Assembly (NCBI GenBank): GCA_023105745.1
Contig: JALGQZ010000012.1
Span: forward strand, 46,800,535-46,864,534
Length of the DNA: 64,000 nucleotides
Direction of reading: 5' to 3'
Source of the DNA: Austropuccinia psidii
Taxonomy: Eukaryota > Basidiomycota > Pucciniomycetes > Pucciniales > Sphaerophragmiaceae
In this document: positions 26,086 to 48,176 of the stretch, piece after piece
How the letters are laid out: the number at the start of each line of letters is the position of its first letter
Position numbering within the stretch: position 1 is the stretch's first letter
Notes under the pieces: model-generated
Database searches by the model: none
What the model was told of the DNA's origin: nothing
Seen by the model: only the letters and a program-made list of their open reading frames with translations
Translations under genes and position numbers: made by a program

Positions 26086-26908
26086 TTATGGAAGCAAAAG
26101 AGTCAAGGGCGTCAGATATGCATATTGAGGTTCTGGGGCATGGTCAATTATGGACCCCCTCAAGGTTCTCAATATGAGTCCTCCAATCAGAAAGGGTGGA
26201 CCTTCCTTCCAATTCTGGGAAGGCCCCCCTTTTTTATGGTCCCAGAATGGCCTTAGCAATCCAGGCCATATGGCCGATTTGGCCCCCTGGTAACCCCCCA
26301 AAAATGGGGCCTGGGGCCGGAATGTCCCCAAGAAACTCCACCTAACCCCACGTACTGCGGACTGTGATCTACCAACCACAGCGCGTCATGGGCCATAAAG
26401 GTCATCATTGACCAAAATGGCCACAAATTACCAAATTTTCAACTTTCAAGAAAAAATGCCATTACATGGAAAGAACCCAAATGAATCATAATTCCCCAAA
26501 ATGACCTCAAAAAGTCATTTGGGACCCAGAACTTCAAGATTTATGGGGAAAAGACCCCCTTCTCAATATGCATATGGGAGGAAATGGTGCAGGAAAAGGC
26601 CTCAACAGTTTATGGCCAATTTTCGGTGGTGGATGGGCATTCATATAGCCACCCTTCACCATTTTTCAAGCTGGAGGTGATGGTGGCCTCCATGGCCACA
26701 AACCCTCCTTGATTCAAAGCAGAAAATAACTTCAGGTGGTAAATAATTCAAGGAAGAAGATCACTTAATTTAATAGAAAGAAGTCTTTTTAATGAAGGAA
26801 GAAAGAACAGAGATACTGAGGGGAATGATTTCCAGGATAATGAGAAAGAGCAAAAAAGATTAAAAAATTATATATTTTTGGAAATTTGGAGCAAATTGGG
26901 AAAGACAC
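26086..26908. other. GC-richer repeat-like stretch, then left flank of element E
   Basis: 26150-26400 is markedly richer in G and C than anything else in the window, with runs such as GGCCATATGGCCGATTTGG. Frames on the minus strand (26379-26086) are open but look compositional and not gene-like. 26400-26904 holds nothing recognised. 26905-26908 (ACAC) is the left target-site copy of element E. Confidence 0.4.
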
Positions 26909-28897
26909 TGTGGTATTCCATACCATTTTTTTTCACCAGGCTCAAGCTCATAGTACCCCATAACAGCAGTAAATCTAGCCTACAGGCAGACTTACACTCA
27001 AATTTTACACCAAAAGGTCAATTGTACAGCAAGAAGCTGGATTTAACTCATAAAACCATGGCACAGGCACCAAAGGGCAGTGTATGTGTTTAAATAAATT
27101 ATTCAATTTCATTATGCATATGTAAAAATCAAGTTACATATAGTAAACTAGTTACAACAAACAAGGTACCACCCTTTAAATTACACACCCCACCCAGCTT
27201 TACACCCCATTATAGCCACAGGACTCATGCAGCAATAAAGGACACCTGCATGAATTACACAGCAACCTAGCACTCAGCATAGAGAAGTCACAAGATGCAA
27301 AGCTAAAACCCATGGAATTCCTGCAAGTCATTTACAACACCGCCACAGGAGTACCTTATCTTATATCCACAGTAGCCCCACTTGAAACCTTAAAACAGAA
27401 TCATAATTTTTTACACAACTAATCACCTCATGCAAACCAAAGCTAGTTAAAACAGGCTGCATGCAGTACACAATTTTAATTAAATCTCAACCACATGACT
27501 ATGCACAGCATGTGTCAAACTCAAAAATCACATCATCTCATACATAACAGTAAGATTCACCAGTGCAATAAATTGTCACCTGACTTCATTTTAAAGTTCA
27601 AAACAAAGAAAAACAACCATGACACCTGCATAAATTACACAGCCCCTTCTATCAAGCCTAAAATATGACATATGCAGAGAAAATAAAAGGTCATCATGTG
27701 ATACTGCACCCACCAACAGCATATCATGTGGCAGAAAAGAGGCTGTGCACAAGAAAAATCCTCAGCCAAAATGAAATCACCTCATGCGTGCAAGTGAAAC
27801 CCAAGAATATCACATCATAATTAGTTCACCAAAAAAATAAACCATCATGTGACAAATGAAGGCTGTGCAGAAAGAAAATTATCACCAAACCTTAAATCAC
27901 CTGACCCATGCAAGAAAGGTCCTCACCAAAAACAGAGTCACATGATGAAATCAAGAGGAATTAAAGTGGAAAAAGACAGCTCCCATGGAGGGCCCTCTAG
28001 GCTCCCAAAAGGTAGAAATAGAAGGCCTCTCTCCCCCAAATTTCATAATTCCCCCCCATGAAAATTATATCCCCTGCACATTGCAAGCACAGGAATAATT
28101 CATCCCTAACCCGGGAGGTAGTCCAGTATATTATAGTAAAAATTACTTGCCCAGTAGCTAAAGCTCAGTGGAAGTATAGTGTTGAAGATTACCCAGTAGC
28201 TAAGCTCAGTGGAATCTTATTATTATTAAAATAAAAATAAAAATTATCCAGTACCCAATATTAGGGTTACTATATTAAAATACTTTATCCAGTAAAATTA
28301 ACGCCATTATCAAGACTTAAAAAAAACTTACCCCTTTAAAAATCCAATATCAAAGAACCTTACCTCTTAAATTTAACAAATACAATTATATTTTATTATT
28401 AACCACTCTTAAAAAATCATAACAAACCTTTAAAAAAATTATTTTACTCTATTATAACTATACCTTAACAAAATTACCTTTATCAACACCCATCAAATTT
28501 TTTCTCAAAAGACTTAAATAACTCATCTTACCAAAGTTTTCTCACCAAGAAGAAACCACTCACCTCAATTTAACCAAAAAAAATAAAATTAAACAGAAAA
28601 GTATTTCATTAAAATCTCAAATTACCAAAATTACTGACAGTATTTTTCATATTATTTATTGAATAGGTCTGATCTGAGACTGCTGAATTTTGTCTTCTGC
28701 ATTTGTAAAGCCACTTACTAATTTTATTTTGGTTTGTGAGCTCCAAGGAAGATTTTGTTCAGTATTTTAGGAGGGGCAGGCAATACACCCTTCCCACCCT
28801 TGGTTACAGGAGTTATTAGCAATTCAAAACTAGTTACCTGTGATTTCCTCCTCCGGGTACTGCCTCATTTTAATCCCACACAAGAGGAGTTCCCACA
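26909..28897 (+). repeat. 5' LTR of element E (1989 bp)
   Basis: It begins TGTGGTATTCCATACC and ends GAGGAGTTCCCACA. It matches 46187-48176 throughout. The U3 part is rich in CACATG/CATGTG-type steps (for example TCACATGATG). The TATA box found in the 3' LTR is altered here. Confidence 0.93.
28013..28021 (+). promoter_or_regulatory. Altered TATA box, 5' LTR of element E
   Basis: TAGAAATAG here aligns with TATAAATAG in the 3' LTR (47289-47297). If the 3' LTR keeps the ancestral form, the promoter that would drive full-length RNA is damaged. Confidence 0.5.
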
Positions 28898-28899
28898 TC

Positions 28900-28917
28900 T
28901 GGTGTCTCAACAGTGGC
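28900..28917 (+). promoter_or_regulatory. Candidate primer-binding site, element E
   Basis: TGGTGTCTCAACAGTGGC starts two bases after the LTR, the same spacing as in family 1. The priming RNA is not identified. Confidence 0.5.
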
Positions 28918-29184
28918 CCAGTCAACCTCAAACTTCAATAACATATAAATAAAATTCCAATAAATCAAAAAAAACTACATCAAAAAAAATATTACTACTA
29001 TAACAAAACCTGGAGTCAAATAATCAAAATCAGCCAAAACCATCATCTCAAGAATCTTAATCATCAACTCACGCTGACCATTACTATTATCCACCAAAGC
29101 AAGAAACAGAACTAGGGGAGGAATCAAATAAATATTCCAATTTCCCAATTGAAACACCAAGAACCAATAAAAGGGACTTGAAGG

Positions 29185-31430
29185 TTGTGGAGAAATTCTT
29201 CCTTGAGCTCCTTGAAAGAAATAAACTCAATAAATCAATCTCAAAAGAGGAAATTAACCAATCAAAAATGGATAAACCTTCATCATCAAAATTACCTGGC
29301 AGTATTGAAGAAATCCAGGAAGAAAACTTTAATGAAGAAACTGTTGAAGGACAGGAAGAAATGTCTTCAGCAGAAGATGCTAGAAATGAAAGCAGAATTA
29401 CTAGCACTAATCAGAAAGGAAGGCAAAAATGAATCATCAAGTTATACTCCACAAAATAGTCCACTTGAAGAACAAACCACCCTTCCAAGATCATTCAGGC
29501 AGCATGGATCACCTTCACCTTATCCTAGACCCGTGGCCACATCAACACCTTATACAGAATAAAGACAAAGTACCTTACCAAGAAGAGTCAACATTTCTTC
29601 CCAAATGCCAACTCCATTACATCAAGAAATTCCAAGAAACACTACTCCAATAGTGAAAATCAGAGCCAAGGACTATAGCTTGTGGTTTGATGGAAAGGAT
29701 GTTGAAAGATTCATCAAGAAAGTTGAAAATATTGCAGAAATTGAAGGAGCAAGTGGAAGAGACATTGCAAGAAAAATAGCATTTTGGACAAAAGATGAAG
29801 AAATCACTTACCATATTGAAGGAATGCCAGGATATGAAACAGCTGATTGGGATAAATTGAAAGTGGATATGAAAAGAAGATGGGGAACAGTCTCACCTGA
29901 AAGAAGATACAGATTATCCTCAATCACTGATTTATTTACAAAACCTCAACAAGAAGGTGGAATAAGAAACATGACTCAATACAGAAAATTTATTGGGGAA
30001 TATGAAGCAATCATCACTTACCTCAAAAGATACCAATATATCCAAGGTGATATCAATCATAACCAGGAAATATTGGCCAGCCTTTCCACTAGTGTTCAAG
30101 AATCAATTTACAAAGAAATGATTAAAGACAGAGCTATGGTTCAAGCATTGGATGGAGGTTACATCATTCCAAGATTGGATATTTTGAAATTATACATTGA
30201 AAAAGACTTTGAGGCCAAGGTACTTATTCAACAAAAAGAATTTTCTGAACCAAAACCTCCAGAAAAGAAAATAAGATTTGAGGATGAAAGCTGGGATGAA
30301 GTTTTAAAACAAGTAAAAGAACCTACCCAAAAGATCAAAACTCCTCCACAACCAGAACCTCAACCAAGAAATGAGGGAAAAAAATCAGTTAAAGAAGTTT
30401 TAAATCAACTCAAAACCCTTTCAGAAGCAATGAATCCACCAAGAAGGAACTGGAACAACAATCAAGAGCAAATATTCCCTCAAAATAACCAGCCATATAG
30501 GCCAAGGAATCCTTTACCACCATTTTCATCCAGTTACCAACCATACATACCAGCTCAAATGGCTCCAAGACCACCATTGAAGTGTGCTTACTGCAAGGAA
30601 GAAGGTCATACAGCAACTAGATGCGCTCACCTTGCTGGATATCTGGACAGAAGAATTGTCAGAACCCAAGGAGCATCTTACCTCTTCCCCAATTATCAGA
30701 GAGTACCTATGGAAGAAAATGAAAGTGCCAAAAACATAGTCAGGGCTTTTGCAAAAGAACAATCAGAGCTCAACAAGAAATTTATGGAAAAACGTACTGT
30801 CAAACCAAAACAAGAAGAAGAGGTTAAGCCCACTGAAAAGAAATCAGAGGATAAATCAACCTCAATTGCACATGTTGAAGATTGGTCAAATTGGAAACCA
30901 CCTACCATTTCCTCAGCCAATTACCCTTTTGAATCACACATTGGACTAAGGTAGACCAAGCAAAGAATGGAAAGACAATCCCAAAATCAAGAGCCAAAGA
31001 AGAAAACAGCTATTCCAGGAACTCACATTGAAGAAGAAAAAGAGGAAGAAAGAGTAATAATTCCCACCAAATTCCAAAATTCAAATATTCCAAAACCAGA
31101 CCAACCTGAGGAGGAAATTGAAAATATTGCCAATAAGAATGAAGATGATGAAATTCCCAAATAAGAAAACAAGTTCAGAAAACCTCCAAAGAAACCAGTT
31201 GAAACCAAATTGGAAATTGAAAAAATAATCAATAAAATTATGCAACAAAAGATCAACCTCACCATTTAAGAAATTTTGAGGATGTCACCCAATTTTGTCT
31301 ATAAATTACAAGAATTATCAGAAAAAGACAAGGAAAAAATTAAATCACTCAACTCAATGGATCTTCAAGAAAGACTATTAACATTTGGATTCAAAGAAAT
31401 ACTAAGCCCAAGATTCATTATTCCTGTCCT
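29185..31430 (+). pseudogene. gag: gag of element E
   Basis: One reading frame spans this whole region, interrupted by stops at 29560-29562, 30952-30954, 31162-31164 and 31267-31269. The N-terminal part is helical and charged (KTLMKKLLKDRKKCLQQKM). The capsid-like domain lies in the open stretch 29605-30954 (449 codons): YSLWFDGKDVERFIKKVENI, WTKDEEITYHIEGMPGYE, then KRRWGTVSPERRY. A proline-rich linker leads to one intact zinc knuckle, CAYCKEEGHTATRC (CX2CX4HX4C, 30583-30624, about residue 327). The acidic and lysine-rich part after it leads to protease. A one-base shift near 31425 breaks the join. It forms the RNA-packaging particle. Confidence 0.88.
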
Positions 31431-32411
31431 TTGGGATTTATGGAAATCTTTATTGGAAAGGAAGAATATCCTATCAGAGCATTAGTGGACCATGGGGCAG
31501 AACTCAACATTATACCAGAAGAAATAGCAATAAAAGCCTCACTCACAACAAGAAATCTTAACATGAACCTCAGAGGTATTGGAGGGCATACCACTTCATT
31601 GGTTGCACTATCAGAATTTACTCCAATCATTTTGGCTTCAGGAGAAGAAACTCAAATACACTTTTTCATTTCAAAAGGATCTGTCCATACAGTACTTGGA
31701 AGACCCTTCTTGGCAGACAATAATATCAGACTAGAACTCTCCCATAAACAAGGAGAAATACTGAGCTATCAAGAACCTGATGGAAGAAGATTATGCATGC
31801 CAAGATGCAAACCTCAAGCTCTTGGATGGCAAAATGGACCACCTAGAGGAATGTATTTATGCAATATGGCAAAACTGGTCAGAAATAACCAAGGAAAGAA
31901 GGATGAAAATGCAAAAAGAGACAATACCATAATAAATTTAACCCAGAAGACCCAAGAGTTATCCATATCTCCAAAAAGTGATGAATTTGGTCAAGATTTT
32001 CAAAATACCCAATGGCCAAACAACCTCAAAAGACAACTTGAAGACTCAACCTTTGAAGATGAATTACCCAATATAAGCTACAAGCCAATTAACAATAATA
32101 AAGAAACATTCCACATTTTGGTGGATGGAAATGAGAAAATACATGGAAACCCTTTCAAACCTGAACCCAAAAAGACGAAAGTCAGATTTTGTGAACATCA
32201 TGAGCTCTCAGATGAAGAAATTATAAATGAAATTGAAAAAGACCTCAAAATTATGGAAGAAAGAGACAAAAATTTAAAAGACACATACCATATCAACTTC
32301 TTGGACAGACCATTGAACAACCAAGAAGAACCTTATGAATGGCAACTGGAAAACCCTGAATTCATCCAGAAACCTCCCAATGAAGATTATGAAACAGAAT
32401 CCATCCTATAA
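31431..32411 (+). pseudogene. Retropepsin-like protease and acidic linker, element E
   Basis: An aspartic protease of retroviral type, expected to cut the Gag-Pol precursor. The catalytic triad is Asp-His-Gly in ALVDHGAELNIIP (Asp at 31488-31490), in place of the usual D-T/S-G, followed by the glycine-rich flap region NLRGIGGHTTSLV and the VLGRPFLADNNIRLE helix. The family normally dimerises. After about residue 150 comes a long charged linker (EIINEIEKDLKIMEERDKN). The upstream gag frame is shifted by one base near 31425, and a TAA at 32409-32411 separates it from accessory domain 1 in the same frame. Confidence 0.85.
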
Positions 32412-32881
32412 AATGAATACAATTACATTTACCTACCATACATCACCTTTGAAGACATTTATGGGGATGAAACTCAAGAATCCCCTGTGAAGATAAATAC
32501 CTATGTCATCTTCCAGGAGCAAACTTGAGCAAAATCCAATTCTTAGAGCTATTAACTGAAGAGGGAATTAAAGGAAACCTCTCAAATCAACTCTTGGATA
32601 AAACATTTGAAATGGAAATATTACCAAGAAGAGGACTTTACTTCAATCAAATTTGGGCCCAATGGTACTTTGGATTGAATGGATCAACATACCAGACTGG
32701 AAGGCTGAAATGGGTTGGAGATGGGTATATATTCATTGATGAAGAACTATGGTGGTCAGAATTTCCATCAGATCCAGAAATTGAAGAAAGAAATGGCTTT
32801 GTGGAAGCCCTCAAAGACCTTATTTTGGCCAGGTTACTCAACAGACACTCACCTTTCCCACTTAGGGGAGTTCAACTTTAA
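32412..32881 (+). pseudogene. Accessory domain 1 of element E, function unknown
   Basis: Starts in the protease frame (YNYIYLPYITFEDIYGDET). A one-base shift near 32508 moves it to another frame, PGANLSKIQFLELLTEEGIK, which ends with a TAA at 32879-32881. It aligns with accessory protein 2 (33552-34277): LPYITFEDI with LPYIDFEDI, PGANLSKIQFLELLT with PGYNLTKYEFLDLLT, then GNL...N...F.M. and an aromatic-rich stretch with Trp residues (QWYFGLN, ELWWSEFP). I know no named domain like it. Its place next to protease suggests it was part of the polyprotein. Confidence 0.6.
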
Positions 32882-32974
32882 ATAAAATCAACAAAATCAA
32901 GATTTCTTCTTCAAAAATGTATCAGTATCATCCATTAAATGTATCATTAGTTGCTTTTTTATTATTTCATTTTT

Positions 32975-33416
32975 CTCTCAGGGGCAGTGACTTCCTGCCT
33001 TACCAAAGAAGAAATTCATCAACAAATTATTTCTTAAAAAAATAAAATAATAAATATAAAATATAAAAAAAACAAAAAAAACTTACAAAAATATATCAAT
33101 CACCTCCAACATGGCCAATCAACCAATTTTTGGATCCTATGGCAAAGAATTAATAAAAGAAGACCAAATTATTAATAAATATCCAATTATGAAAGCTGAA
33201 GATAAAAATATCAATAAAGAAACCCTTTGGCACTTCAAAGAGACTCCAGCAATATCAGAAAAACCCAAAAAAAGAAATCATAAGGCAGTGACCTCCTGCC
33301 TTATCAAAGAGGAAAATAGTTTCTTGTCAACCAAAAATAACCAATTACACTAACCCAAAGAAACAACAAATCATCCAAATCACTAGGCAGTGACCTCCTG
33401 CCTTATCAAAGAGGAA
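32975..33416 (+). repeat. Three-copy AGGCAG...CTGCCT hairpin repeat
   Basis: GGCAGTGAC(C/T)TCCTGCCTTA(T/C)CAAAGA(G/A)GAA occurs near 32982, 33284 and 33387. Each carries a stem AGGCAG/CTGCCT (5-6 bp) with a 7-base loop. They lie between accessory domain 1 and accessory protein 2, spaced about 300 and 100 bases. Confidence 0.7.
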
Positions 33417-33551
33417 TATCCAAATTTCTTACCCAAAATTACCATCCAAATCCCATTAAACTTACCCTCAAGCTATTTTGATAAATAAATCTGATAAAAT
33501 TCTCAAATATTATTACCTTTTAATACTTTCAAACCCACAAAATCCTACAAA

Positions 33552-34277
33552 ATGCAGTCATGGCCATTACTTCAAGAAAATCCCTGGTCATTGGAGACAG
33601 GTATCAGCTGGGTAGAAGAGAAAGAAGTCTGGGCCAATCACAGTAATCAACAAGAAATAGATGAAAATCCTGACTGGTTCTTTAAAATAAAACCAGAACC
33701 CTGTCCTGATATTTTCACCATAATACTTCCATATATTGATTTTGAGGACATCTTTGAAAAGGAAATACCACTATCAGAACTTGTCATTTCACATCCATGG
33801 AGAGAATTACCTGGATACAACCTCACAAAGTATGAATTCTTGGATTTACTGACCTTTGATGGAGTTGAAGGCAACCTTGGAAACAATTACTGGAATGAAA
33901 TATTCAACATGGATGAACACCTCAGGAAATCACTATTTTGGAGGACCTGGGAATGCCAAGACTGGTTCAACCTGCAGGATTTTGAAATTGGAAACGGAAA
34001 AATAAGCAAGATCTCAGGAGGATATAATATAAAGAATACCACATGGGATTGTCACTGGGAGGAAACACTTATACCATCAATATTCATCCTCAAAGGTGGT
34101 ATAACTAAATTAAATACAGAAGAATGGAAATCCTTCTGTCAAGAATACCTTTTCAAAGCTCTTAAAAAAGAACAAAGGAGGGGAGGGAATTTTGTCACGA
34201 ATGAATTATTAAATAAAATACTTTGTCAAAGGGATCAATCAAAAGAAATCTCACCTGCTAAGTACCCAGTTCTTTGA
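33552..34277 (+). CDS. Accessory protein 2 of element E, function unknown (241 aa)
   Basis: An intact frame with ATG at 33552 and TGA at 34275-34277. No named family is recognised. The N-terminal 60 residues are acidic and Trp-rich (ENPWSLETGISWVEEKEVW). Residues about 60-130 match accessory domain 1 (LPYIDFEDIF, LPGYNLTKYEFLDLLTFDGV, EGNLGNNYWNEIFNM). The second half has Gly/Trp-rich strands (ISGGYNIKNTTWDCHWEE) and a basic C-terminal helix (FCQEYLFKALKKEQRRGG). No transmembrane segment or zinc motif is seen. It is the only undamaged sense frame of element E outside short pieces, which is striking given breaks in gag and pol. It could be a retroelement accessory factor. Confidence 0.65.
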   Translation: MQSWPLLQENPWSLETGISWVEEKEVWANHSNQQEIDENPDWFFKIKPEPCPDIFTIILPYIDFEDIFEKEIPLSELVISHPWRELPGYNLTKYEFLDLLTFDGVEGNLGNNYWNEIFNMDEHLRKSLFWRTWECQDWFNLQDFEIGNGKISKISGGYNIKNTTWDCHWEETLIPSIFILKGGITKLNTEEWKSFCQEYLFKALKKEQRRGGNFVTNELLNKILCQRDQSKEISPAKYPVL

Positions 34278-34511
34278 TTTTAATCCATCCTATTTCCATT
34301 TTAGTTATCATTATTTATCCCTTTTATTTATTAATTGACTTTTACTTTAATCTTCATTACTATCATTATTTAATTCTTCCTTTCATGATCATCTTAAAAA
34401 AAATAAAAAAATAAAAAAATAATAAATATTAGTTCTAAAAATATAAAAATATATAAAACAAGAAATAAGAACACAATTAGTTTCAGTTCAATTTATATCA
34501 GTGGATGATAA

Positions 34512-34549
<38 letters not shown>

Positions 34550-35276
34550 TACATTATATTATTTCCTTCAGATTCTATTCTTATTCCCTTATCCATTTTA
34601 TTTTATTTCTTATTTTTTAATCAAAAAAAAAGGGGGGAAGTGATAGAGCCAGTATTTTAAAGCTCCAATCACTAATTTATCTTCAACTAGATATAAAAAA
34701 TTAATAGATAGGCTTATGGTTTCTTATTGATTTAGCTATCTATTTTATGGAAGTTAAATGAAATTAATTTGAATTTTTTAAGCTCTTTTGTATAACCTAG
34801 CTAAACTCATATGCAACTTAAACTTCACTTGGGATTATTATTTATATATAAAAAAAACAACAAAAAAAAAAGAGATTCTTAGCTTACTGACCTCTTTTAT
34901 CTCTATTTGATTGGTTTATTATTTTTTATTTACTTTATTTTAATTCCTATTTTATTTTATTCTTATTTTATTTTATTTTACTTTTTTTATTTTTATTTTT
35001 ATTTTTATTTTTTATTTTTTTTATTTTTTGATTATTTCCACTGACCTCATTTCATTTTGAATTCGATCCTCACTGAAATTAAGTTTTTATTTGTTTACTT
35101 TATTTTTTATAAATAAAAAAAAATGAATAAATAATAGAGATGAAGTAAGTGAAGACATAGCCTCTTCATTTCAAGTACAGGAGGCCTAACAGGGTGCTAT
35201 AACAAGCTAAGTAACAAATTTTAACCAATAGTAACCTAAATAAATAAATAAAAAACAGCTCAAAATACAAACTTAC
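34278..35276 (+). other. AT-rich stretch with poly(A) run and G-tract block
   Basis: It holds a pure A run of 34 bases (34514-34547), then a polypurine block, A9-G6-AAG (34623-34640), followed by TGATAGAGCCAGTATTTTAA. A similar G6-AAG block followed by GAAAGCCAAGATATT lies on the minus strand of element H (about 61290-61325), also just after the protease/accessory frame. 34900-35040 is low-complexity T/A. Confidence 0.6.
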
Positions 35277-36720
35277 CTTATGGCCTGCTTCACTTAGAAG
35301 GGTAAATAACACAACCCAAAGCATTACAAGGACAAAGGTAGTAGGCACCCTTGGAATTTTTCAAACACTTCTTTTCAGAACCAAGCAAGGATGATAGTTG
35401 AGGATCCAAAAGTCTGGGATCCACTTCTCCATTCAAGAAGGAATAAAAAGCCAAAGCTGCTGCAGGTGTAGGCTTGCAATGGTTGGGAGAGCTATCTGGT
35501 GTACTCAAGAGATCTCCAAGAGCTGGTGGTGATGGGGGAATGTCAGATAAGGGCCATTGGCAGTAAGCCATTCCCAAACCAACTTCCTCAACCTGTTGGT
35601 TGGAGGAATGCAAAGAACAAGGTCTTCTAGCTCCTTGGTGGTAAATGGACGGAAAGCATTGAAAAGTCAGCAGCAAAGCTAACATCATAGGAGCTCATCG
35701 GTATTCTAAATAAAATATATATATATAAATCAATAAACAAAACAACCTCTAGCAAGGAAGACAAAACATACTAAGGTTATAATTAAGAAGGACACAAAGC
35801 TCTATTGGATTGATTGGCGGGATGAATGAAAAAACAACAATGGTTTTTGATCCTTTTATCGAGATAATCAACTTCAGCACCTCAACTCAATCCTCATCAT
35901 GGAATCAATCTAGCACTCTAAAAAAGGAAAAATAAATCATGAATCAACCATCAGTCCATCAACCGTTGGGTGTCAGAAGAGAAGGATTAGGAACAAAATT
36001 CCTTTGTTCACTGAATTCATAAACAAACGTGCACTCTGATAATGAACTTAACTAGAACATAATAAAGGAAATGCTTTTGGAGGAGACTTTACTTACGTGA
36101 CCTGGGCTGGACGTTGAACAAGAAATGATATTGGTACAACTTGCAGATAAACCGCCTATTTACTTTATTACATCTTCCCACTCTATACCCAATTCCCAAA
36201 GAGGAAGGCAATGGAAAAATGAATTGAAAAGATACAATACATACCTGAGTTTTTTTTAAGATCACATAACAAAAACCCAATGGAAACATCAACACCAGCC
36301 CCTGAAGCTTCAAATACGCTTGGACTACTGCAGCCTCTCGGAGAGTGCTGGAGAACACATTCACCACAAAAGAAGTCACCCAATGCCCTGGTAGCTGTCA
36401 AAGAGGTGTGATAATACATGTCATCAACACCAATTTCACCACCCGGAAAGGGTATTAGAGAACCCCATACCCAAACCAACTCAGTTCTCAACCAAGTAAG
36501 GATGTTTAAATTCTCCTTGATCAAACATCATCCCACCCAAAGTGGTTGTGTGGTTTGCAAAAGGTTCAATAGACTGCAGCTACCCAACACTGTTCTAGAC
36601 AGGATATGGGGTATCAAAACCCATCCAAATGACTCTGCAACCCAGAGGGCCTTGAAAGATGATGTCAAAGCCACCATTGGAGCCAGAGCCAAAACCAACC
36701 TTTGATACCAGCACTGGGAG
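35277..36720 (-). pseudogene. Antisense gene-like remnant inside element E
   Basis: Minus-strand open pieces with splice-like signals run opposite to element E. 36715-36530 reads SNGGFDIIFQGPLGCRVIWM ..., then FANHTTTLGGMMFDQGEFKH, with TAG and TGA interruptions. 36524-36250 continues in other frames to an AACTCAG/GTATGT donor-like site near 36246. 35688-35290 is an open ATG frame of 132 codons, Cys-rich toward its end (GAYYLCPCNALGCVIYPSK), with a TGA before a perfect AAG/GTAAGT donor at about 35277. I do not recognise the protein. The mixed frames imply decay, or several introns I cannot place. An intron-bearing gene captured in antisense would keep its introns through retrotransposition; that is inference. 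Confidence 0.4.
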
Positions 36721-36904
36721 AGTGGTAAAGCCGGCGAGCAGGCTTGGGTAAAAACACAAGAAGCACACGATTCTTCAAAACCTCCGACTTCGGCCTAAGC
36801 TTTCCTATAGTCACTCAACATCAATAGAACCATACTTTGGTGACGGTGTCCCTAGGAACTGAGTCTTACATTTGTCAATTCAGTCACCTGAATAAAACTA
36901 TAAA

Positions 36905-36982
36905 GTCCCTAGGTGCTAGATTTAGCACCTCAAACCAGAATGAAACCAGCTCAAATGTTATCAAACACTCAGGAGAGTGTTT
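36905..36982. repeat. Two perfect 8-bp hairpins
   Basis: AGGTGCTA-GATT-TAGCACCT (36911-36930 region) and AAACACTC-AGGA-GAGTGTTT (36963-36982) are perfect stems. They lie upstream of the antisense remnant and before the main hairpin array. Confidence 0.7.
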
Positions 36983-37337
36983 AAGAGAACTATACTGCCA
37001 CATCATGCCGAAAAAACCCTCAGTGATGTCAGAAGAGAATCTAACAGTGAAATGACCTGAAACAAACCTAGAAACTGTTGTTAGCTTAGAGTAAAAGTTG
37101 TTTCAATAACTATTCTGACAAAACCTGTTGACCCAAGGCTATTTCAAGTGTACAAAAGACCTATTAACTGCAGGACAAACCAATCGAAGTGGTTTAAATC
37201 ACCATAAAGTGTCTCTTAAAGAAAATTAGGGATGGAAGCAGAACACTCACAGCACACTAGAGGATTCCAAGGACCTCTAGATTATCCTGAAAAATTGAAT
37301 GTTCTAAAGAATAATAAAAAATAATATTGAAAACAAT

Positions 37338-40300
37338 AATGCCCTCAGCAGGGCATTAAACTGCTTCAATTTCTTTGTTTATGTTATTTTTTTTATTATT
37401 TACTGATTCTTTGTTTTACTGGAATTTAGATATTTTTTTTTTCAGTTTAATGAAATAATGAAAGGAATAAAAAAAATATAATAAAAAAATAAAACAATAC
37501 AAAAAAAAGCCCTCAGCATGTCTTTAAACTGCTTGGTTTGCTTATTTTAAATTAAATTATTTTTTATTAATTTTTTATGCTACAGGGCTACAAATAACAG
37601 AAAATTTCCTCAGCAAGACATTAAACCGCTGAAATTTTCTTTCATTTTATCCTTAATATTACATGAAGCTGACATATTTTATTTTGATGTGCTCCAGGGC
37701 TATAAATAACAATAAAAGCCCTGGACAAGGCCTTAAACTGTTCAATTTTATCTTTTATTATTTATTTTCATTTTATTGACTTCTTTTATTTGATTTTCTT
37801 ATGTTACTCAAAATTTGTTATTATTTTCTTTTCAAAAGATATAAAAAATAAAAACAATACAAAAAAAATGTCCTCAGCAAGACATTAAACTATTGAAACT
37901 TTTTCATTTAATTTGATTTTATTTTTTAAATCCTACTTAATTATTTTATTTCCTACAGGTGTTCAATAGACAAAAAAAACCCTGGAAAGAAATGATATAT
38001 AAATATATAAAGATGGCTGGAAAAGGATAAAAGCCCTCATCAAGGCTTTGAACTGATGATTTTCTTAATTTTAACATTATTTTATCTTTTTATGACTGTT
38101 TCAATTTAAAACTTCTGATTATTGATTTCTACAGGAAATTCAAAAGGAAAACAATTAAAAAAAGGGCTATAAATCAAAAATAACATATAATGAAAGCCCT
38201 AATAGGACTTATAAAGGATATAAGCCCTCAGCATGGCTTTAAACTGCTTCTTTTATTCTTTGTTTGAATTATATTATCATTTATGAGCTTATTTAAATTA
38301 CTGACAAAATATTGATTTGAAGTTACCAGGGTTTGAAAAAAAATAAAAATAAAATAAAGCCCTCAGCATGGCTTAAAACTGCTTGGTTCAATTTTATTTT
38401 AATAATAGTGCCTCTATAAATGCTAATATTATGTTTTTAATTTCATACAGGTATATTTCAATGAAAAGCAAAAGAAACAAGTGCAGAAAAACAGTAATCA
38501 ACATTAGGACCAATTTCAGGATTTTATAAGCTCAAGAGAATACTTTTAAGAAACAACAAAAGTCCTCAACAAGACTTTAAACTGTTGAATCTATTTTCCT
38601 GTTTTGTGTCAATATTGCTTCTTATTAATTAGTTTTTTTCATAAAACAAAATGATGATAATGATTACAATATATATATATATATATAATATAAGAATATA
38701 AATAACATGCTTATTCATTTTTAATGATACTCAATATTTTATTTAAATTTACTGATGCTTTTTTTTACAAAGGCCTTAAAAAGAATAACAAATAACAGAA
38801 AATGTCCTCAGCAAGAAATCAAACTGCTAGAATTTTTTCATTTTCTCATTAATATTAAATGAAGCTGACTTATTTCTGTTTTTATGTGCTACAGGGCTAT
38901 AAAGGACAATGCAAAGCCCTCAGCATGGCTTTAAACTGCTGGTTTTGCTTGTTTATTTTTAATTTAGTTTATTAATTATTTTATGATACAGAAAAAATAA
39001 CAAAAGTGTCCTCAGCAAGACAATAAACTGCTAAATTTTACATTTTGACAATTAAACCATACTAAAATACTTTATTTTGAATCCTACAGGACTTCAATAT
39101 ATCAAAAGCCCTGGGCAAGGCTTTAAACTGCTCAATTTTATATTGTTTTATCATTTTAATGACTTGATTGTTTTACTGACAATTTTATTCTATTTTTCAC
39201 AGTTTTTTATCAACAAATATATATATAATAACAAGAGAAATATCAATGTATATAACAGAATGGGGGATCAAAAAGGAAAAAGACCTCAGGATACAAGAAA
39301 TAACAAATAATTCCTCAGCAAGACATTAAACTTCTGGTTTCTTATTTTATTTCAAATTAACAAAAAAAAATAATTATTGTTTACTTTTTACAGGGCTCTA
39401 AAAAATAAATGCCCTGAGCAAGGCTTTAAACTGCTATTTTATCTTTTATGCTTTCTTATTTTGAATGATAACTATACTAACATATTTGATTTGGCTTTTA
39501 TAGTTATTCAAAATTTAAAAAAAAAAACTTTCAGGATCTTATAAGTTTAAGAAAATTATTTTAAAATGAAAATAGTCCTAAATAAGATTATAAACTGTTT
39601 AATTTAATTATACAACTTGGCTTTGAAGATAAATCAAATCCCCTGAAAACCAAAAATTATCAAAAAAAAGTGTTTGGACAAAAGATATGGTCCTTGGAAA
39701 GACCATAAACTTCCCCTTCAAGGATCAAAGACTTCCTCAGGATATCATCAAGAATATCAACAAAAAGAAATAACCAATGGTCCTTGGCAAGACCATAAAC
39801 TACCCACCACTAAGATTCCTCAACAAGACTTTAAAATGTTGACTTTATCTTCCTGTTTTGTGTTAATGCTATTTCTTACTAATTGGTTTTTTTATATTTA
39901 AAAAAATGATGATAATGATTACAATATATATATATACATAAGAAGATAAATAATATGCTTATTTATTTTTAATTTTATTCAATATTTTATTTAAATTTAC
40001 TGATTATTTTTTTTACAAAGGCCTTAAAAAGAATAATAATAATAAAAAAGAGCCCTCAGTATGGCTATAAACTGATTATTTTTCTATTATTTTTCATTTT
40101 TACTTTATACCGGTTATTGAAGAAGACTGAAATATTTAATTTTGATAGGCTACAGGGCTATAAATAACAGAAATGTCCTCAGAAAGACATTAAACTGCTG
40201 GATTTTTTTTTATTTTCCCCTTGATATTACATGAAGCTGACATATTTGTTTTTAGGTGCTACAGGGCTATAAAGGACAATGCAAAATACTAAGAAAGGCT

Positions 40301-40763
40301 TTAAACTTCCATTTTTATTTTTTATTTTTTTTATGCTTTTTCTTATATTTTATAATATATTATACTGATATATTTTATTTTGAATGCTACAGGTGTTCAT
40401 AATGAAAATATTTCTCTGATTTTATAACATTAAAAGTGCTTTTAAGGTGAAAAGGAGTCCTTAACAAGACTATAAGCTGTTGACTTGAATTATAAAACTT
40501 GGCTTTGAAGATAAATCAAATCCCATGAAAACCAAAAAATTATCAAACAAAAGTGTTTGGACAAAAGATATGGTCCTTGGCAAGACCATAAACTGCCCCT
40601 TCAAATATCAACATGAAATCAAGCCAATATCAACAAAAAACAACAAAAAGAAAATCTGTGGTCCTTGGAAAGACCATAAACTTCCCACCATTAGAATTAT
40701 CAACAAGGACTCAAAGCTAAAACACAATCAACCAATAGTCCTAGGCAAGACTATAAACTACCT
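37338..40763 (+). repeat. Main covarying hairpin array, about 27 units (element E)
   Basis: Each unit is stem, loop CTCAGCAA/CTTGGCAA/CTCAGCAT, complementary stem, then TAAACTGCT. Clear units: 37338-37357 (AATGCCC/GGGCATT), 37868-37887 (AATGTC/GACATT region), 38030-38049 (AAAGCC/GGCTTT), 38222-38239, 38357-38374, 38559-38578 (AAAGTC/GACTTT), 38913-38932, 39105-39124, 39686-39707 (TATGGTC/GACCATA), 39777-39796 (ATGGTC/GACCAT), 40172-40191 (AATGTC/GACATT), 40569-40590, 40735-40754 (ATAGTC/GACTAT). Weaker units lie near 37506, 37602, 37714, 38192, 38801, 39006, 39308, 39407, 39574, 39812, 40050, 40283, 40455 and 40667. Spacing is irregular (about 35-240 bases). Many units are preceded by CTGAY, a T-rich run and CTACAGGGCTATAAA. 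Confidence 0.85.
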
Positions 40764-41756
40764 GAGGTTTTATTTTACTTTATTTTTCTACTTTCTAATT
40801 TTATGTCATTATAAAAAAGAATTGGAAAGATGTACTGACTTAAGCTTTTGAACATATTTCTTATTTTATTTTATTTTTTATCCTAAAATTCAACTATTTA
40901 TTTTCCCCAAGAATTAGGGTCATATCCCATTCATGAGCTCAAGAATATTCTATTATACTTTTCCTACTATTACAACAAGAGCCATTAAGTTGGCTTGATT
41001 TTTCAACTCAATAATAACAAAAAAATAAATAAAAAAAGAACTCTACATCAAGTAATTTTTTAAAAAATGATCAATTTATTTGAAATATTTCTTCAATTAC
41101 AAGAGAGTTATTGGAACTTCTTTGAAAAGAAGAAGTATTTGTGCCATGAAGGCATTAATTGGACTCTGAAGGAGTTATTTATATTAAAAACTCATATATT
41201 GATGACATAGATTGGGGAACTTACATATTAATAACACCTCAATGTGCTGTTTATTCCAAATGGAATTGAAAAAGCCCCCCAAAAAGCAAACAATGGTTTT
41301 TTTAAATTGTACAAATTTTCAATTTCACTGTTTATATTTTTAACAACTCAAATGCATTTATGGGTAACAGAAAATCTGAACCATAAAGGGGATGGACTTG
41401 AAATAAAGTCTGAGTCACAATAATGATTCCAAAAGAAAGAGTTGTGGCATCATAAGGGTCATTAGATTGATGAAGGACGCAAACTATGATCATTCAATTA
41501 TGTAATATTAATCATAAATACTCTCAAGAGCACCAATTTTTACTGATTTGCACAGCTTACCACCTTTAACCAAACAGTTCCATGATCTTAATTGTGATTC
41601 AGGTTTATTTCGTTTAAATTGTGATTTTCACTCAGATATCTCACTTTATGGTTATTTTATACTTAAATTAAAAAAAAGAAAGCAACTTATTATTGAATCA
41701 TCATTAAAATAGAATTATGTATATTTACTGTATCATTACTTATCCTCATCAAAATC
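40764..41756 (+). other. Noncoding segment conserved with element B
   Basis: No gene seen. 40900-41240 matches the minus strand of 9060-9360 (for example TTGATGACATA and ATTAATAACACC), and 41270-41750 matches 8460-9000 in the same sense. Confidence 0.6.
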
Positions 41757-41886
41757 ACTATAAAAAATAAGGCGTGGGTAAACTTATTTCTTACACTATC
41801 CCTTATAGTAGAAGGTTTGGGGGAATGAGAACATATCCTCTTCAAAATTTGAAAACCAACTCAAGATTTTTAAATGGAGAGGGGGG
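41757..41886 (+). promoter_or_regulatory. Conserved block with internal (central) polypurine tract
   Basis: The block ATAAAAAATAAGGCGTGG ... ACTATCCCTTATAGT forms a long-range inverted repeat, and TAAATGGAGAGGGGGG lies at 41871-41886. TAAATGGAGAGGGGG is identical to the 3' polypurine tract at 46171-46185. Counterparts on the minus strand: 8395-8530 in B (AAATGGACAGGGGGG) and 57290-57406 in H (AAATGGAGAGGGAAATTG). A second plus-strand priming site is a reasonable inference, by analogy with central tracts in lentiviruses and Ty1. Confidence 0.6.
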
Positions 41887-42376
41887 CCCTTATCCAAACA
41901 AAAGAATATTATTAAAAAAAACAAAATAATAATAATAACTAATCAATCAATATTAAAGTCAACTTCAAATCAGTTTTATTATTTTTCATTTATCATTCTA
42001 TTTTTTATGACAGGAATAATCTAGGAATACAAAAAAAGGACATAAATTATATTGGAGAAATAGCAAGGGAATTGGGAAACAACTTATTATAGGAAAATTA
42101 TTCAGAATACTGAAAATGAAGAAGATTATTTATGAAGAAAAGCAGGAGTTCCTTATGGATTGACCTTTGGGCAACACCAGACCTTGGGGATTTCTTTGAA
42201 TTTGGATTGAAACTCCATTGGAATTCAAGAATCACTGGCCAGGATTTATGGACTGAAGGATGACTCACTGGATTCATTATTGACTCAGGACTCACTCAAT
42301 ATGATGGACCAACAAGATTATGAAAACACTCGACTCAAATTTCCCTTGGGATTTTAAAGAAGCTTGAAGACTCAAG

Positions 42377-42860
42377 AGGTCCTCAGCATGACACTACACT
42401 GCTTCCCCTGTACACTTGGGCAGGGAAAATTATAAAAAAACAGCCAAGAAGCTGGAGGGGATCGTCCTAGTCAGGAGAAGTGCTGAAGGACCATTTTTGT
42501 CCTTAGCATGACAATAAACTGCTCCCTTTGTGTAACAGGAACAAGGGGTTTTACAGGTGTTTATCATTATCAAATTGGCCAAAATGAACAAAGTGAAGTC
42601 TCAAGACCTGAATTAAGACAAGATAATTCCTATTCAAGAAATAAAACAACCAGAAGAATCTTGCATCAAGTGAAAATCATGAAGATTGAAGAATAAAACA
42701 AGAGTCAAGTGGAGTCCAAAAGCAAGCCCAAAGGAGCTCAAGAATCAAGATAAGCCCTTGGATTAGGCCAGGAGGTCCTTGCATGACTTAAACTGCAGGA
42801 CTTGTATACCTAATATATAGGGGTTACACACCTAGTTGTAGGTCCTGTATGACCTTAAAC
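42377..42860 (+). repeat. Four further hairpin units just upstream of pol
   Basis: Units near 42377 (GTC-CTCAGCAT-GAC), 42497-42514 (TTGTC-CTTAGCAT-GACAA, then TAAACTGC), 42773 (degenerate) and 42840-42855 (AGGTC-CTGTAT-GACCT, then TAAACTAC). The stems TTGTC/GACAA and AGGTC/GACCT add two more compensatory pairs. The last ends about 120 bases before the pol ATG. Confidence 0.75.
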
Positions 42861-42979
42861 TACATTTTTTATGGAAGAAAGAAGAAAGAAGAATTGTGAA
42901 GACCTCAAGATTTCAGGACACTAGCAAATTCCTGAAAATAATTAAAAGAAAGAAGAAGAAACAAAATAACTAATTGAAG

Positions 42980-45900
42980 ATGGATCACCAAATTTTAGCA
43001 GCCAAATACAAATCAGTCCTGAAGAAGGTGAGACCAGTCAATGAGCCAATGACTCAAGACCTTAACCCACCTTTGGAAAGACCACCTTTGTCAAGAGATC
43101 CTTATGAAACACCCTTATCACCAAACCCACCTATATTTCAAGAAACCTTCAAGGTCACCCATGAAAGACTCCAAGCAGTCAATTTTGGCCCACCAGGATG
43201 GTTATCAAATGAAGAAATCAATTTACTCAAAAATGTCATTACCTTAAGGGAAAAAGTAATAGCTTTCTGTGAAGAAGAAAGAGGATTACTCAAACACTCA
43301 TATGGAAAACCTTACAAGATACCAGTAATACCTCATGAACCTTGGCCGAAGAAACCAATTCCCATTACCAAATCAATTTTACCTCAGTTTACTGAATTAA
43401 TCAGAGAAAGAATCAGGACTGGACTCTATGAGCAATCCACCTCAAGCTACACAAGCCCAATCGTTTGTGTGGCCAAATCAAATGGGAAACTCAGAATTGT
43501 CCATGACCTTCAAGAACTCAACAAAGTCACCATCAAGGATGCTGGCTTACCACCTCATATTGAAGAATTTGTAGAGGCATTTGCAGGAAGAGCATGCTAT
43601 GGACTAGGAGACATCATGGGAGGACATGATGAAAGAGAATTAGATGTCACTACAAGACCCCTCACTACTTTTGAAACACCCCTTGGAAGGATGCAACTCA
43701 CAAGACTACCCCAAGGAGCCACCAACTCAGTAGCAGTATACCAAGCCCAAATGACCTGGATAATTCAAGAAGAAATACCAGAAAGTGTAGGAATTTTCAT
43801 TGATGATGGAGGAATAAAAGGACCAAGATCCCTTTACAACCAAGAAACACTACCAGAAAACCCCTCAATCAGAATATTTATATGAGAATATGTCATAACC
43901 TTAGAAAGAGTTTTATTCAGGATTGAAGAAGCAGGAATTACTATCTCAGGATCAAAGTTTGCATGCTGTGTTCCAGCTTTGGAAATAGTAGGGCATGTTG
44001 TATCATTTAAAGGAAGAACAATTTCAAAACAAAAGATTAACAAAATTCAGAATTGTCCAACACCTCTTAACCAGAAGGAAATAAGGAGATTTCTTGGACT
44101 TTGTGCCTATGTAAGGATGTTCATTGAAAACTTCTCACAAGTTGCATCACCACTCAAAAGGCTCACCAGAGAAGATGTTGACTGGTACTGGGATCAAAAA
44201 TTTGAAGAAGCTTTCCATAAGCTCAGAAGAATAGTTGGAGAAGAAATAACCCTCAAGAAATTGGATTATGACAAAGGAGCAGGAAAAATTAAGCTAGCAG
44301 TAGATTCAAGCTACATTGCTGCAGGAGCAGTACTCACTCAAGAAGATAAAGAAGGAAAAGACAGACCAGTATTATATGAATCAATAACTTTTTCAAAATT
44401 AGAATCAAGATACTCACAACGCAAATTGGAACTCTGTGGAGTTGCAAGAATTCTCAAGAAGCTTCAGACAATACTTTGGGGACAACATTTTGAGCTACAA
44501 GTTGATGCCAAAGCCTTGATTGAAATGATCAACACCCCTTGCTTACCCAATGCCCCCATGACAAGATGGGTGGCTTTCATTCAACTATTTTCCTTTGATT
44601 TGGTACACAAACCAGGGAAGACTTTCACTATGCCAGATGGGCTATCCAGAAGACCAAAAAACTCAGAATAAGAAGATGAATATGCACCAGAATTTGATGA
44701 AGAAGAAGATTGGATCAAGCCACACCCTGGATTTGGGGCAAAAAATGTAAATTCACTCCATTTTTCAGGAGTACAAGTACCAACCAAACAAGAAGGATTT
44801 TGGAAGATAATGCAAGAGTACTTAAGTACAATGAAAAAACCACAATCAAGCAAAGATGAAGAGTTTAGAAGGATTAAAAGAAGGTCACCCAACTTTTTCT
44901 TGGAAGATGGCCAGCTTAAAAGAAATAACCCAAACCCTCAACTGGTGATATCAAGTCAAGAAGCTCAAAGCTACATTTTAAAATCACTTCATGAAGACAT
45001 GGGCCACAGGGGGGAAAATGAAACTTATCAAAGAATTAAAGCAAGACTTTGGTGGGAAGGAATGAAGAAATCAGTCAAGAAATGGGTTAAATCTTGCCTG
45101 GCCTGCCAAAAGAGAAGTCAGAACTTACAAAGGGAACAAGGAAAATCTACAGCAACATCAACAATCTTTGAGAGGGTCAGTATGGATGCAGTCCATATCA
45201 AATCTGGAAGATGGAAGTATATGGTTGTGGCCAGAGATGATTTTTCAGGATGGCCAGAAACAGTTGGACTAGTCAAATTAACAGCAAAAGCAGTTGCAGA
45301 ATGGTTCACCTCAGAATGGATATTCAGGTATGGCTCACAAAAAGAAGTAACTGTGGATGGGAGGCCAGAGTTTGGAAAAGAATTGCAAGATGCAGTAAAG
45401 AAAGCAGGATCAAGGATCAGAGTCACCACACCCTATTACCCAGAGTCTCAAGGAATGGTGGAAAGGGGCCATAAACAGCTCAAAAATGCACTAGTCAAGA
45501 TGTGTGGAGAAAATGGAGGGAAATGGAAAAAATATTTACCACTAGTTACATTGGCTGACAGAATTTCCACTAAAAAAACAACTGGTTTCTCACCATTTAA
45601 ACTCCAATTTGGACAAATACCAGTATTACCAATTGACATTGAAACAAAAACATTTTTAGCAGTAGAATGGCACAAAATATCCACAACTGAGGAATTAATG
45701 GAAGCCAGAGCTAAACAATTAGAAGGGAAAGAAGAAATGAGAAGGAAAGCAGCAAAAAAACTCAAAAAATCAAGGGAGGACTCAATGAAATATTGGGATA
45801 GAAGAATGGCACACCAACCAAGAACACCACTCAATTCAGGAGATTTGGTCCTGGTTTACAACAAAGCAATAGAAACTACTTGGGGACTACTTTTCAAAAA

Positions 45901-46087
45901 CAAATGGAATGGACCCTACAGAGTAATCAGACAAATAAACAATGGACCATATGAACTTGAGGAACTTGATGCAACAGAATTAGCAAGAAGATTTGCAGCA
46001 TCTCCAGTCAAGAGGTTCTACCCAAGAGGAAAGTTGATAAACACAAAAGAAGACACAGAAGAAGAACAAAGTGAAGAAGATGAATAA
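42980..46087 (+). pseudogene. pol: pol of element E: RT, RNase H, integrase
   Basis: A single frame of about 1035 codons from ATG at 42980, cut only by TGA at 43883-43885 (replacing a likely Trp before EYVITLERV) and TAA at 44669-44671. RT: SSYTSPIVCVAKSNGKLRIV, TRLPQGATNS, then FIDD at 43796-43807 (about residue 273) where most relatives have YXDD. RNase H: LAVDSSYIAAGAVLTQ, YSQRKLELCGV, and a closing GKTFTMPDGLSRRP. Integrase: HHCC zinc domain (LHEDMGHRG ... CLACQKR), then catalytic Asp in SMDAVHIK, Asp in TVDGRPEFG and Glu in GMVERGH. The C-terminal part (DLVLVYNKAI, NKWNGPYRVI) resembles the GPY/F module. No protease is upstream within 8 kb, so this block would need its own translation start or a spliced RNA. 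Confidence 0.92.
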
Positions 46088-46170
46088 ATAAATGAGGAAG
46101 AGGTATTTGAGGAGACCACAGAATCAGATGAAGAATAGAGAGCTCTCACCTGGAATGCTGGCGACAGAAT

Positions 46171-46186
46171 TAAATGGAGAGGGGGA
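46171..46186 (+). promoter_or_regulatory. 3' polypurine tract of element E
   Basis: TAAATGGAGAGGGGGA directly precedes the TGTGATATTCC start of the 3' LTR. Confidence 0.9.
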
Positions 46187-48176
46187 TGTGATATTCCATA
46201 CCATTTTTTTTCACCAGGCTCAAGCTCATAGTACCCCATAACAGCAGTAAATCTAGCCTACAGGCAGACTTACACTCAAATTTTACACCAAAAGGTTAAT
46301 TGTACAGCAAGAAGCTGGATTTAACTCAGAAAACCATGGCACAGGCACCAAAGGGTAGTGTATGTGTTTAAATAAATTATTCAATTTCATTATTCATATG
46401 TAAAACTCAAGTTACATATAGTAAACTAGTTACAACAAACAAGGTACCACCCTTTAAATTACACACCCCACCCAGCTTTACACCCCATTATAGCCACAGG
46501 ACTCATGCAGCAATAAAGGACACCTGCATGAATTACACAGAAACCTAGCACTCAACATAGAGAAGTCACAAGATGCAAAGCTAAAACCCATGGAATTCCT
46601 GCAAGTCATTTACAACACAGCCACAGGAGTACCTTATCTTATATCCACAGTATCCCCACTTAAAACCTTAAAACAGAATCATAATTGCTTACACAACTAA
46701 TCACCTCATGCAAACCAAAGCTAGTTAAAACAGGCTGCATGCAGTACACAATTTTAATTAAATCTCAACCACATGACTATGCACAGCATGTGTCAAACTC
46801 AAAAATCACATCATCTCATACATAACAGTAAAATTCACCAGTGCAATAAATAATCACCTGACTTTATTTTAAAGTTCAAAACAAAGAAAAACAACCATGA
46901 CACCTGCATAAATTACACAGCCCCTTCTATCAAGCCTAAAATATGACATATGCAGAGAAAATAAAAGGTCATCATGTGATACTGCACCCACTAACAGCAT
47001 ATCATGTGACAGAAAAGAGGCTGTGCACAAGAAAAATCCTCAGCCAAAATGAAATCACCTCATGCATGCAAGTAAAACCCAAGAATATCACATCATAATT
47101 AGTTCACCAAAAAAAAACCATCATGTGACGAATGAAGGCTGTGCAGAAAGAAAATTATCACCAAACCTTAAATCACCTGACCCATGCAAGAAACGTCCTC
47201 ATCAAAAACAGAGTCACATGATGAAATCAAGAGGAATTAAAGTGGAAAAAGACAGCTCCCATGGAGGGCCCTCTAGGCTCCCAAAAGGTATAAATAGAGG
47301 GGCTCTCTCCCCCAAATTTCATAATTCCCCCCCATGAAAATTATATCCCCTGCACATTGCAAGCACAGGAATAATTCATCCCTCACCTGGGAGGTAGTCC
47401 AGTATATTATAGTAAAAATTACTTGCCCAGTAGCTAAAGCTCAGTGGAAGTATAGTGTTGAAGATTACCCAGTAGCTAAGCTCAGTGGAATCTTATTATT
47501 ATGAAAATAAAAATAAAAATTATCCAGTACCCAATATTAGGGTTACTACTCTATTAAAATACTTTATCCAGTAAAATTAACACCATTATCAAGACTTAAA
47601 AAAAACTTACCCCTTTAAAAATCCAATATCAAAGAACCTTACCTCTTAAATTTAACAAATAAAATTATATTTTATTATTAACCACTCTTAAAAAATAATA
47701 ACAAACCTTTAAAAAAAATTATTTTACTCTATTATAATTATACCTTAACAAAATTACCTTTGTCAACACCCATCAAATTTTTCTCAAAAGAATTGAATAA
47801 CTCATCTTACCAAAGTTTTCTCACCAAGAAGAAACCACTCACCTCAATTTAACCAAAAAAAATAAAATTAAACAGAAAAGTATTTCATTAAAATCTCAAA
47901 TTACCAAAATTACTGACAGTATTTTTCATATTATTTATTGAATAGGTCTGATCTGAGACTTCTGAATTTTGTCTTCTGCAGTTGTAAAGCCACTTACTAA
48001 TTTTATTTTGGTTTTTGAGCTCCAAGGAAGATTTTGTTCAGTATTTTAGGAGGGGCAGGCAATACACCCTTGCCACCCTTGGTTACAGGAGTTATTAGCA
48101 ATTCAAAACCAGTTACCTGTGATTTTCCCCTTCAGGTACTGCCTCATTTTAATCCCACACAAGAGGAGTTCCCACA
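46187..48176 (+). repeat. 3' LTR of element E (1990 bp)
   Basis: TGTGATATTCC ... GTTCCCACA; matches the 5' LTR. ACAC at 48177-48180 completes the target duplication. It has a TATAAATAG box at 47289-47297. Confidence 0.93.
47289..47297 (+). promoter_or_regulatory. TATA box in 3' LTR of element E
   Basis: TATAAATAG, about 1.1 kb into the LTR, followed by GC-richer GGGGCTCTCTCCCCC. Confidence 0.55.

Follow-up and report, generated by a model that had tools for sequence, protein, structure and literature searches.

How a retrotransposon reads its pol gene when the start codon lies about 10.6 kb beyond the protease, and what the structured repeats in the intervening sequence might contribute, are the questions raised by a 64,000-nucleotide (nt) stretch of the genome of the rust fungus Austropuccinia psidii (contig JALGQZ010000012.1, positions 46,800,535 to 46,864,534; hereafter the window). 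The element concerned, element E, is a Ty3/Gypsy-type long terminal repeat (LTR) retrotransposon. Its LTRs, its protease and the order reverse transcriptase (RT), RNase H, integrase all fit this class. The element runs from a gag-like open reading frame (ORF) through the protease and a 259-amino-acid (aa) ORF to a long AT-rich gap, which carries an array of short units, and then to pol. An initial annotation described these units as about 31 covarying hairpins with a fixed loop and a fixed tail. Each unit is almost certainly a compact H-type pseudoknot and not a plain hairpin. All 27 of the 27 pol-anchored loci read, which represent three pol clades, carry such units upstream of pol.

The pseudoknot fold

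The unit consists of stem 1, a C, four to six loop bases, an A or U, the second arm of stem 1, AAAC and then the complement of the loop. With the covariance model R1, element E has 29 plus-strand units at E<=1 (37336-42868), between gag/protease and pol. Twenty-eight of these are at E<=0.065, and the 29th (42622, E=0.62) is probably false. An extra unit at 42773-42799, missed by R1, is kept in the other copies aligned; the total is thus about 29, near the number first claimed. The other R1 matches in the window are 16, in two minus-strand arrays (13 and 3), and the rest of the 64 kb holds no further units at E<=1. Chance origin is excluded because sense-motif and genome-wide counts dwarf those of reversed or antisense controls. 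A motif in which CCT, one A/T, one G and AAAC are the sole fixed letters occurs 298 times in sense, three times in antisense and four times reversed in element E and 16 other pol-anchored copies. Across the genome (1.015 Gb, 84 contigs), one unit variant has 4082 places at <=3 mismatches and a second family's variant 3997 at <=2 mismatches, each against 0 for the reversed pattern.

A plain hairpin with a constant loop was considered and rejected, because loop and tail pair with each other and covary. Loop/tail pairs among distinct units include TCAGCA/TGCTGA, TCAACA/TGTTGA, TCATCA/TGATGA, TTGGCA/TGCC and TTGGAA/TTCC. Among 435 column pairs in 171 distinct units, the two strongest signals are one stem-1 pair and one loop-tail pair. 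Sixty-eight of the distinct units differ by at least three letters, and 66 of these were aligned (alignment A1; window:42622 and L009:6932 were dropped as weak). In the 66 divergent units, 83% of cells are paired, versus 22-42% with slid partners. Double changes fall in 99 cells versus 41 in shuffles, and none of 500 shuffles reaches 99. Changes on both sides are seen in nine of 12 pairs, a value that 64 of the 500 shuffles also reach.

Covariation was then set against a tree null of our own, R-scape-like, in which the substitutions of each column are placed anew on a FastTree tree. The stem-1 pair 4-15 (E=0.005) and the loop-tail pair 10-26 (E=0.015) survive. The remaining structural pairs are not individually significant, and one pair outside the structure, 16-24 (E=5.4), falls within their ranks. 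A second alignment, of 150 rows, joins families. Its rows had to form the first four stem-1 pairs, which inflates the stem-1 values; no such demand was placed on stem 2. Here one loop-tail pair, which occurs as GC, AT, TA and CG, has the highest rank and a value above the best of each of 300 null alignments; for the loop-tail pair next in rank, E=0.45. The mean energy of a unit's own loop-tail duplex is -2.67 kcal/mol versus -1.10+-0.12 for swapped partners, and none of 200 swaps reaches it. The loop-tail helix is better evidence for the fold than the stem arms. The initial annotation was right about a conserved RNA fold and about the paired changes in the arms, which also keep their complementarity in units of other families; its fixed loop and fixed tail were mistaken.

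Stem 2 is mainly 4 base pairs (bp) long, with an outward fifth pair in 79 of 171 units. The connectors (1 nt over 4-6 bp; 4 nt over 4-6 bp) can span the grooves, as judged by ideal A-form phosphate-to-phosphate distances only. Single-sequence folds cannot show pseudoknots, and some prefer other pairings (an element E unit, the first leader unit of clade A). Stem 1 contains 50 GU and 12 AC combinations versus shuffle expectations of 100.6 and 61.7, AC being depleted more. Stem 2 has a slight asymmetry (60 GU and 40 AC versus 101 and 78 in shuffles). Across four families, 353 sense places contrast with seven in controls, four of which are antisense in clade B. The GU/AC asymmetry and sense-only placement therefore indicate a fold at the RNA level. 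A DNA-level palindrome is disfavoured by the loop-tail pairing and by the same asymmetry.

Pol clades, leader knots and the setting of the array

The loci read comprise 16 of 90 matches in clade A, besides element E, six of 222 in clade B, four of 146 in clade C and five of 80 in family 3, from a genome search in which just the top candidates receive a score. Copies of clade A carry 7-26 units, whose flanks are rich in A on the 5' side (61% of 12 nt) and in U on the 3' side (51% of 20 nt). In clade B, whose integrase is 60% identical to that of element E, units lie upstream of pol in six of six loci, mostly as 50-nt tandem repeats with the heptaloop CUUGUAU and the tail UACAG. Clade C (query P0048, 70% identical to element E's) has hexaloop units in four of four loci, for example C-UCCA-U with the tail UGGA. 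Irregular spacing, as first described, is thus a property of element E's own family; in the sister family the units follow one another in tandem with a strict 50-nt period. Each clade has multiplied a repeat of its own (irregular octaloop, 50-nt heptaloop or hexaloop) built on a common knot. Such separate amplification of repeat units around one fold is difficult to account for unless many copies of it were selected. A further family, family 3, was found via a protease-like ORF. It has 72-73-nt units in the window and in three of five loci, and no units within 5 kb in the other two. Its covariation rows are the window copy, L153, L155 and L156; L154 and L157, which have no units, were left out. 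Eight loci fetched by unit pattern each share 30-98% of their 3 kb with loci already read.

Two units precede the pol AUG in the nine copies measured. The distance from the last GTCC to the pol ATG is 136-141 nt in five clade A and B loci and 227-248 nt in four clade C loci; in a tenth, L147, the ATG pattern was not found and the distance is not measurable. An alignment of the pre-pol region, with 13 rows from clade A and 5 from clade B, has a mean conservation of 0.38. It excludes L009, L010, L011, L013 and L149, where the pol-start pattern failed, and L158-L161, which were read afterwards. Conservation is high only at leader knot 1 and the short hairpin that follows (0.73-0.92, 26-column windows starting at 42770-42802), with 0.65-0.68 at leader knot 2. 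Stem 1 of leader knot 2 carries a compensatory change between clades, from AGGTC/GACCT to AAGTC/GACTT. Single-strand folding gives the clade A leader a plain hairpin in preference to the knot; the leader (42776-42799, and those of clade B) could thus alternate between the two structures.

Table 1. Coordinates of element E, its structured units and related features in the window.
Feature	Position	Strand	Basis or remark
Element E, LTR retrotransposon, 21.3 kb	26909..48176	+	LTRs 26909-28897 and 46187-48176
Gag-like ORF, 463 aa	29563..30954	+	Open frame; gag suggested by position and a CCHC-like stretch
Protease ORF, 355 aa	31344..32411	+	RVP PF00077, E=2.1e-6
Main array, 25 units at E<=1e-3, octaloop type, irregular spacing	37336..40766	+	R1; loop-tail pairing
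Two units nearer pol (42374-42407, 42494-42527)	42374..42527	+	R1
Leader pseudoknot 1	42773..42799	+	Conserved between pol clades A and B; missed by R1
Short hairpin between leader knots	42804..42818	+	Conserved between clades A and B; stem by eye
Leader pseudoknot 2, hexaloop	42837..42868	+	R1 E=0.065
pol (RT, RNase H, integrase)	42980..46087	+	Three same-frame ORFs split by stops in element E
Second array, 13 R1 matches, related reversed element remnant	9513..10861	-	R1
Three 72-73-nt tandem units, family 3	57481..57659	-	R1; protease-like ORF 61944-63713, minus strand

The LTRs of element E are 2 kb direct repeats of 97.3% identity. By eye, the element has TG..CA ends, ACAC on both flanks and a purine tract ahead of the 3' LTR. 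The gag-like ORF has no match in Pfam. A 259-aa open frame between protease and array (33498-34277, plus strand), likewise without a Pfam match, is either a third element protein or chance. The place of the two units nearer pol is also unit-bearing in most of the 16 other copies scanned. The pol frame contains two stops, and its RT match falls under the Pfam cut-off in the element E copy. Elsewhere, about 60 of the best 90 integrase matches (hand count) lie in frames of 1054-1055 aa, and a few of these are flagged for a stop in the matched part. For the integrase ORF, the top-scoring named match comes from Austropuccinia psidii MF-1 (90% identity over 86%); Puccinia relatives reach 48-51%. In one published assembly of A. 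psidii, transposable elements, mainly Gypsy, make up more than 90% of the sequence (PMC8063080). Two integrase relatives, P0051 and P0062, are filed as Xanthomonas sp. A2111 and Streptomyces fumigatiscleroticus and are possibly rust DNA contaminating bacterial assemblies; in scans of GTDB and IMG/VR contigs no integrase relative was confirmed. Just ahead of element E, a stretch of higher GC content (25495-26143, minus strand) has two long overlapping open frames.

Likeness to coremin and a proposed role of the array

Sequence by itself is sufficient to show the fold, its covariation, the sense placement, the presence in three clades, the separate amplification and the knots before the pol AUG. 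What the units do we infer: a roadblock role is proposed because they resemble viral coremin, a likeness to viral exonuclease-resistant RNAs (xrRNAs) that the initial annotation did not notice. Coremin (xrRNA-C) is printed as GUCCGAAGACGUUAAACUAC. As described in excerpts of one report (PMC10520033), it occurs in beny- and cucumoviruses, with forms in fungal hypo- and chrysoviruses, and stalls both Xrn1 and scanning ribosomes in vitro. Loops of 4-8 nt are known, and motif repeats are mentioned in a figure legend. The second loop base must be G in the context of beet necrotic yellow vein virus (BNYVV; PMC10520033), and a second hairpin is required. Coremin and the array units have in common a GUC/GAC stem, a loop starting with C and ending A-A/U and, less securely, the spacer UUAAACU.

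The coremin first stem (about 4 bp, GUC/GAC) is present in the units, with GCC/GGC instead in 45 of 107 aligned clade A rows. The last loop base is A or U in 183 of 185 units and C in one, which fits the 'D' of coremin. In the coremin spacer, UUAAACUAC, AAAC was part of the search motif; U follows AAAC in 351 of 353 places and precedes it in most, and the variant UAC occurs in clade B and some clade A units. Five typed examples were compared with coremin. Two clade A units, a clade B unit and the second leader unit score 17/20, with two to four loop bases inserted, and a clade C unit scores 15. The second leader unit, a hexaloop, matches the hexaloop coremin form at 18/22 without a gap. In a coremin-only scan, all 20 window sites of at least 15 lie inside units (some being two registers of one unit); 20 Markov windows give 27 such sites in total.

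The tandem knots are best read, with caution, as coremin-like roadblocks to exonuclease, ribosomes or both, which would protect or make a pol RNA. We give this reading slightly less than an even chance. A 5'-3' exonuclease (Xrn1 or Rat1) entering the transcript of about 20 kb would halt just 5' of a unit, and many leaky units in series would add up to a near-complete block. The 3' fragments left would carry pol and the 3' LTR, and the block would protect, or make, a separate pol RNA; the same folds may halt scanning ribosomes. The units and coremin agree in their frame (GUC/GAC, the loop-start C, the A and A/U of the loop end, AAAC, U); the part that varies is the helix by which loop and tail are locked together here. 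A stronger form, which we consider unlikely, is that the pol messenger is made by host exonuclease trimming to up to about 26 serial knots, not by splicing or frameshifting. These knots, in thousands of copies, would be the first xrRNAs known from a cellular genome's mobile element, and the loop-tail helix may hint at a hidden principle of the coremin class.

Several observations weigh against the roadblock reading. The coremin loop YGAD/YGNNAD is kept at its first C (which was selected for), A and D, and the G at its second base occurs in 0 of 185 units, U, A or C standing in its place. Shuffled coremin queries reach 17 in four of 200 cases and at least 16 in 34 of 200, although none has more than three sites of at least 16 versus seven for coremin. 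A second hairpin, sought in the 24-mers after the tail, is no better than in shuffles in clades A and C. It is modestly above shuffles in clade B, where GGGU-AGCA-ACCU can form by eye and the minimum free energy fold of the whole unit differs in detail, and in family 3 stands at 0.20 versus 0.08 (10 sequences). Viral coremin loops lack the long loop-tail helix, which in family 3 is weak in turn (a fourth pair in one of nine). The proposal also gives no account of how an uncapped pol RNA is translated. Since none of 185 units has the loop G, and clades A and C show no enrichment of a second hairpin, the units are best called coremin-like and are not filed as coremin.

The leader knots could instead act in translation control only, by stopping scanning ribosomes or joining a cap-independent entry site, so that translation from pol's own AUG would run at a fixed level. 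Their position, 136-248 nt ahead of the pol ATG in nine of ten loci, and the block to scanning by coremin (PMC10520033, in the excerpted text) agree with this. Such control needs no array of 7-26 units kilobases upstream and finds no match to an internal ribosome entry site in Rfam; we regard it as improbable. Packaging, which we consider about equally improbable, would suit the many copies, their sense-only and noncoding placement and their variable number. Foot-and-mouth disease virus (FMDV) has two to four tandem pseudoknots needed for infectious virus, according to part of one report (PMC9203018). Packaging leaves the coremin-like core letters and the conserved pair before pol unaccounted for.

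A nuclear role would make the gap a giant intron or a stretch of premature poly(A) sites; the knots would then direct splicing or block the torpedo exonuclease Rat1/Xrn2. Of the 298 clade A units, 52 have YACAGG in the 60 nt before them versus three in shuffles, and in 25 of the 52 a branch-site-like CTRAC precedes it. No matching 5' splice sites were seen by eye, clade B and C spacers differ, and the probability of this role is low. Clade A spacers (for example window 37570-38900, L019) repeat a sequence resembling an intron end, made up of branch-site-like TACTAAC or CTGAC, a pyrimidine run and CTACAGG. On a neutral view the array has no function and grew as satellites do, by template switching or unequal exchange; the fast turnover of unit number in clade A speaks for this. 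It is the least credible reading: it conflicts with loop-tail covariation, with stem-1 AC being depleted more than GU, with one knot in different spacers, and with the strand bias and the conserved leader knots. Template switching that perfects palindromes, raised at the outset as a non-selective cause, does not explain loop-tail covariation across three clades.

Comparison with known systems

An xrRNA-like array of this kind would be new for a mobile element. Among the papers listed in searches of open-licence PMC, judged by title and the start of the abstract, there is no report of an xrRNA or pseudoknot array in a retrotransposon. The rust transposon paper PMC12210899 contains neither 'hairpin' nor 'pseudoknot', and the accessible text of PMC8063080 lacks 'hairpin'. 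None of 4227 Rfam models reaches its gathering score in the window; the array has five sub-threshold matches at E<=10 (E 3.9-8.8), which are not credible. Two pattern scans of IMG/VR (109 and 13 stretches) gave one match each among the matches listed, near a rough chance estimate. With thousands of natural variants in a single genome, the units form a new and well-supported structured RNA element, from which one could learn how a minimal RNA can stop Xrn1 or ribosomes. They suggest that retrotransposons, like RNA viruses, may make use of a block to RNA decay, and they make pol expression across a 10-kb gap in an LTR element testable.

Ogre-type plant LTR elements are, like element E, very long and have a gap between protease and RT; in Ogre the gap is an intron. 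To our knowledge they carry no pseudoknot array. From coremin, the array units differ in their 4-6 bp loop-tail helix, in their long arrays within an LTR retrotransposon and in mostly lacking the second hairpin. The xrRNAs of flaviviruses and of tombus- and solemoviruses are pseudoknotted and often serial, as the units are, and stop Xrn1. These folds are larger than the units, and no sequence match to them was found in Rfam. Some xrRNAs precede coding subgenomic RNAs, and viral xrRNAs can make such RNAs, as stated in part of one source (PMC6299227). The FMDV pseudoknots resemble the units in being small, tandem, variable in number and placed in noncoding RNA, but they occur in two to four copies, have another core and are linked to assembly.

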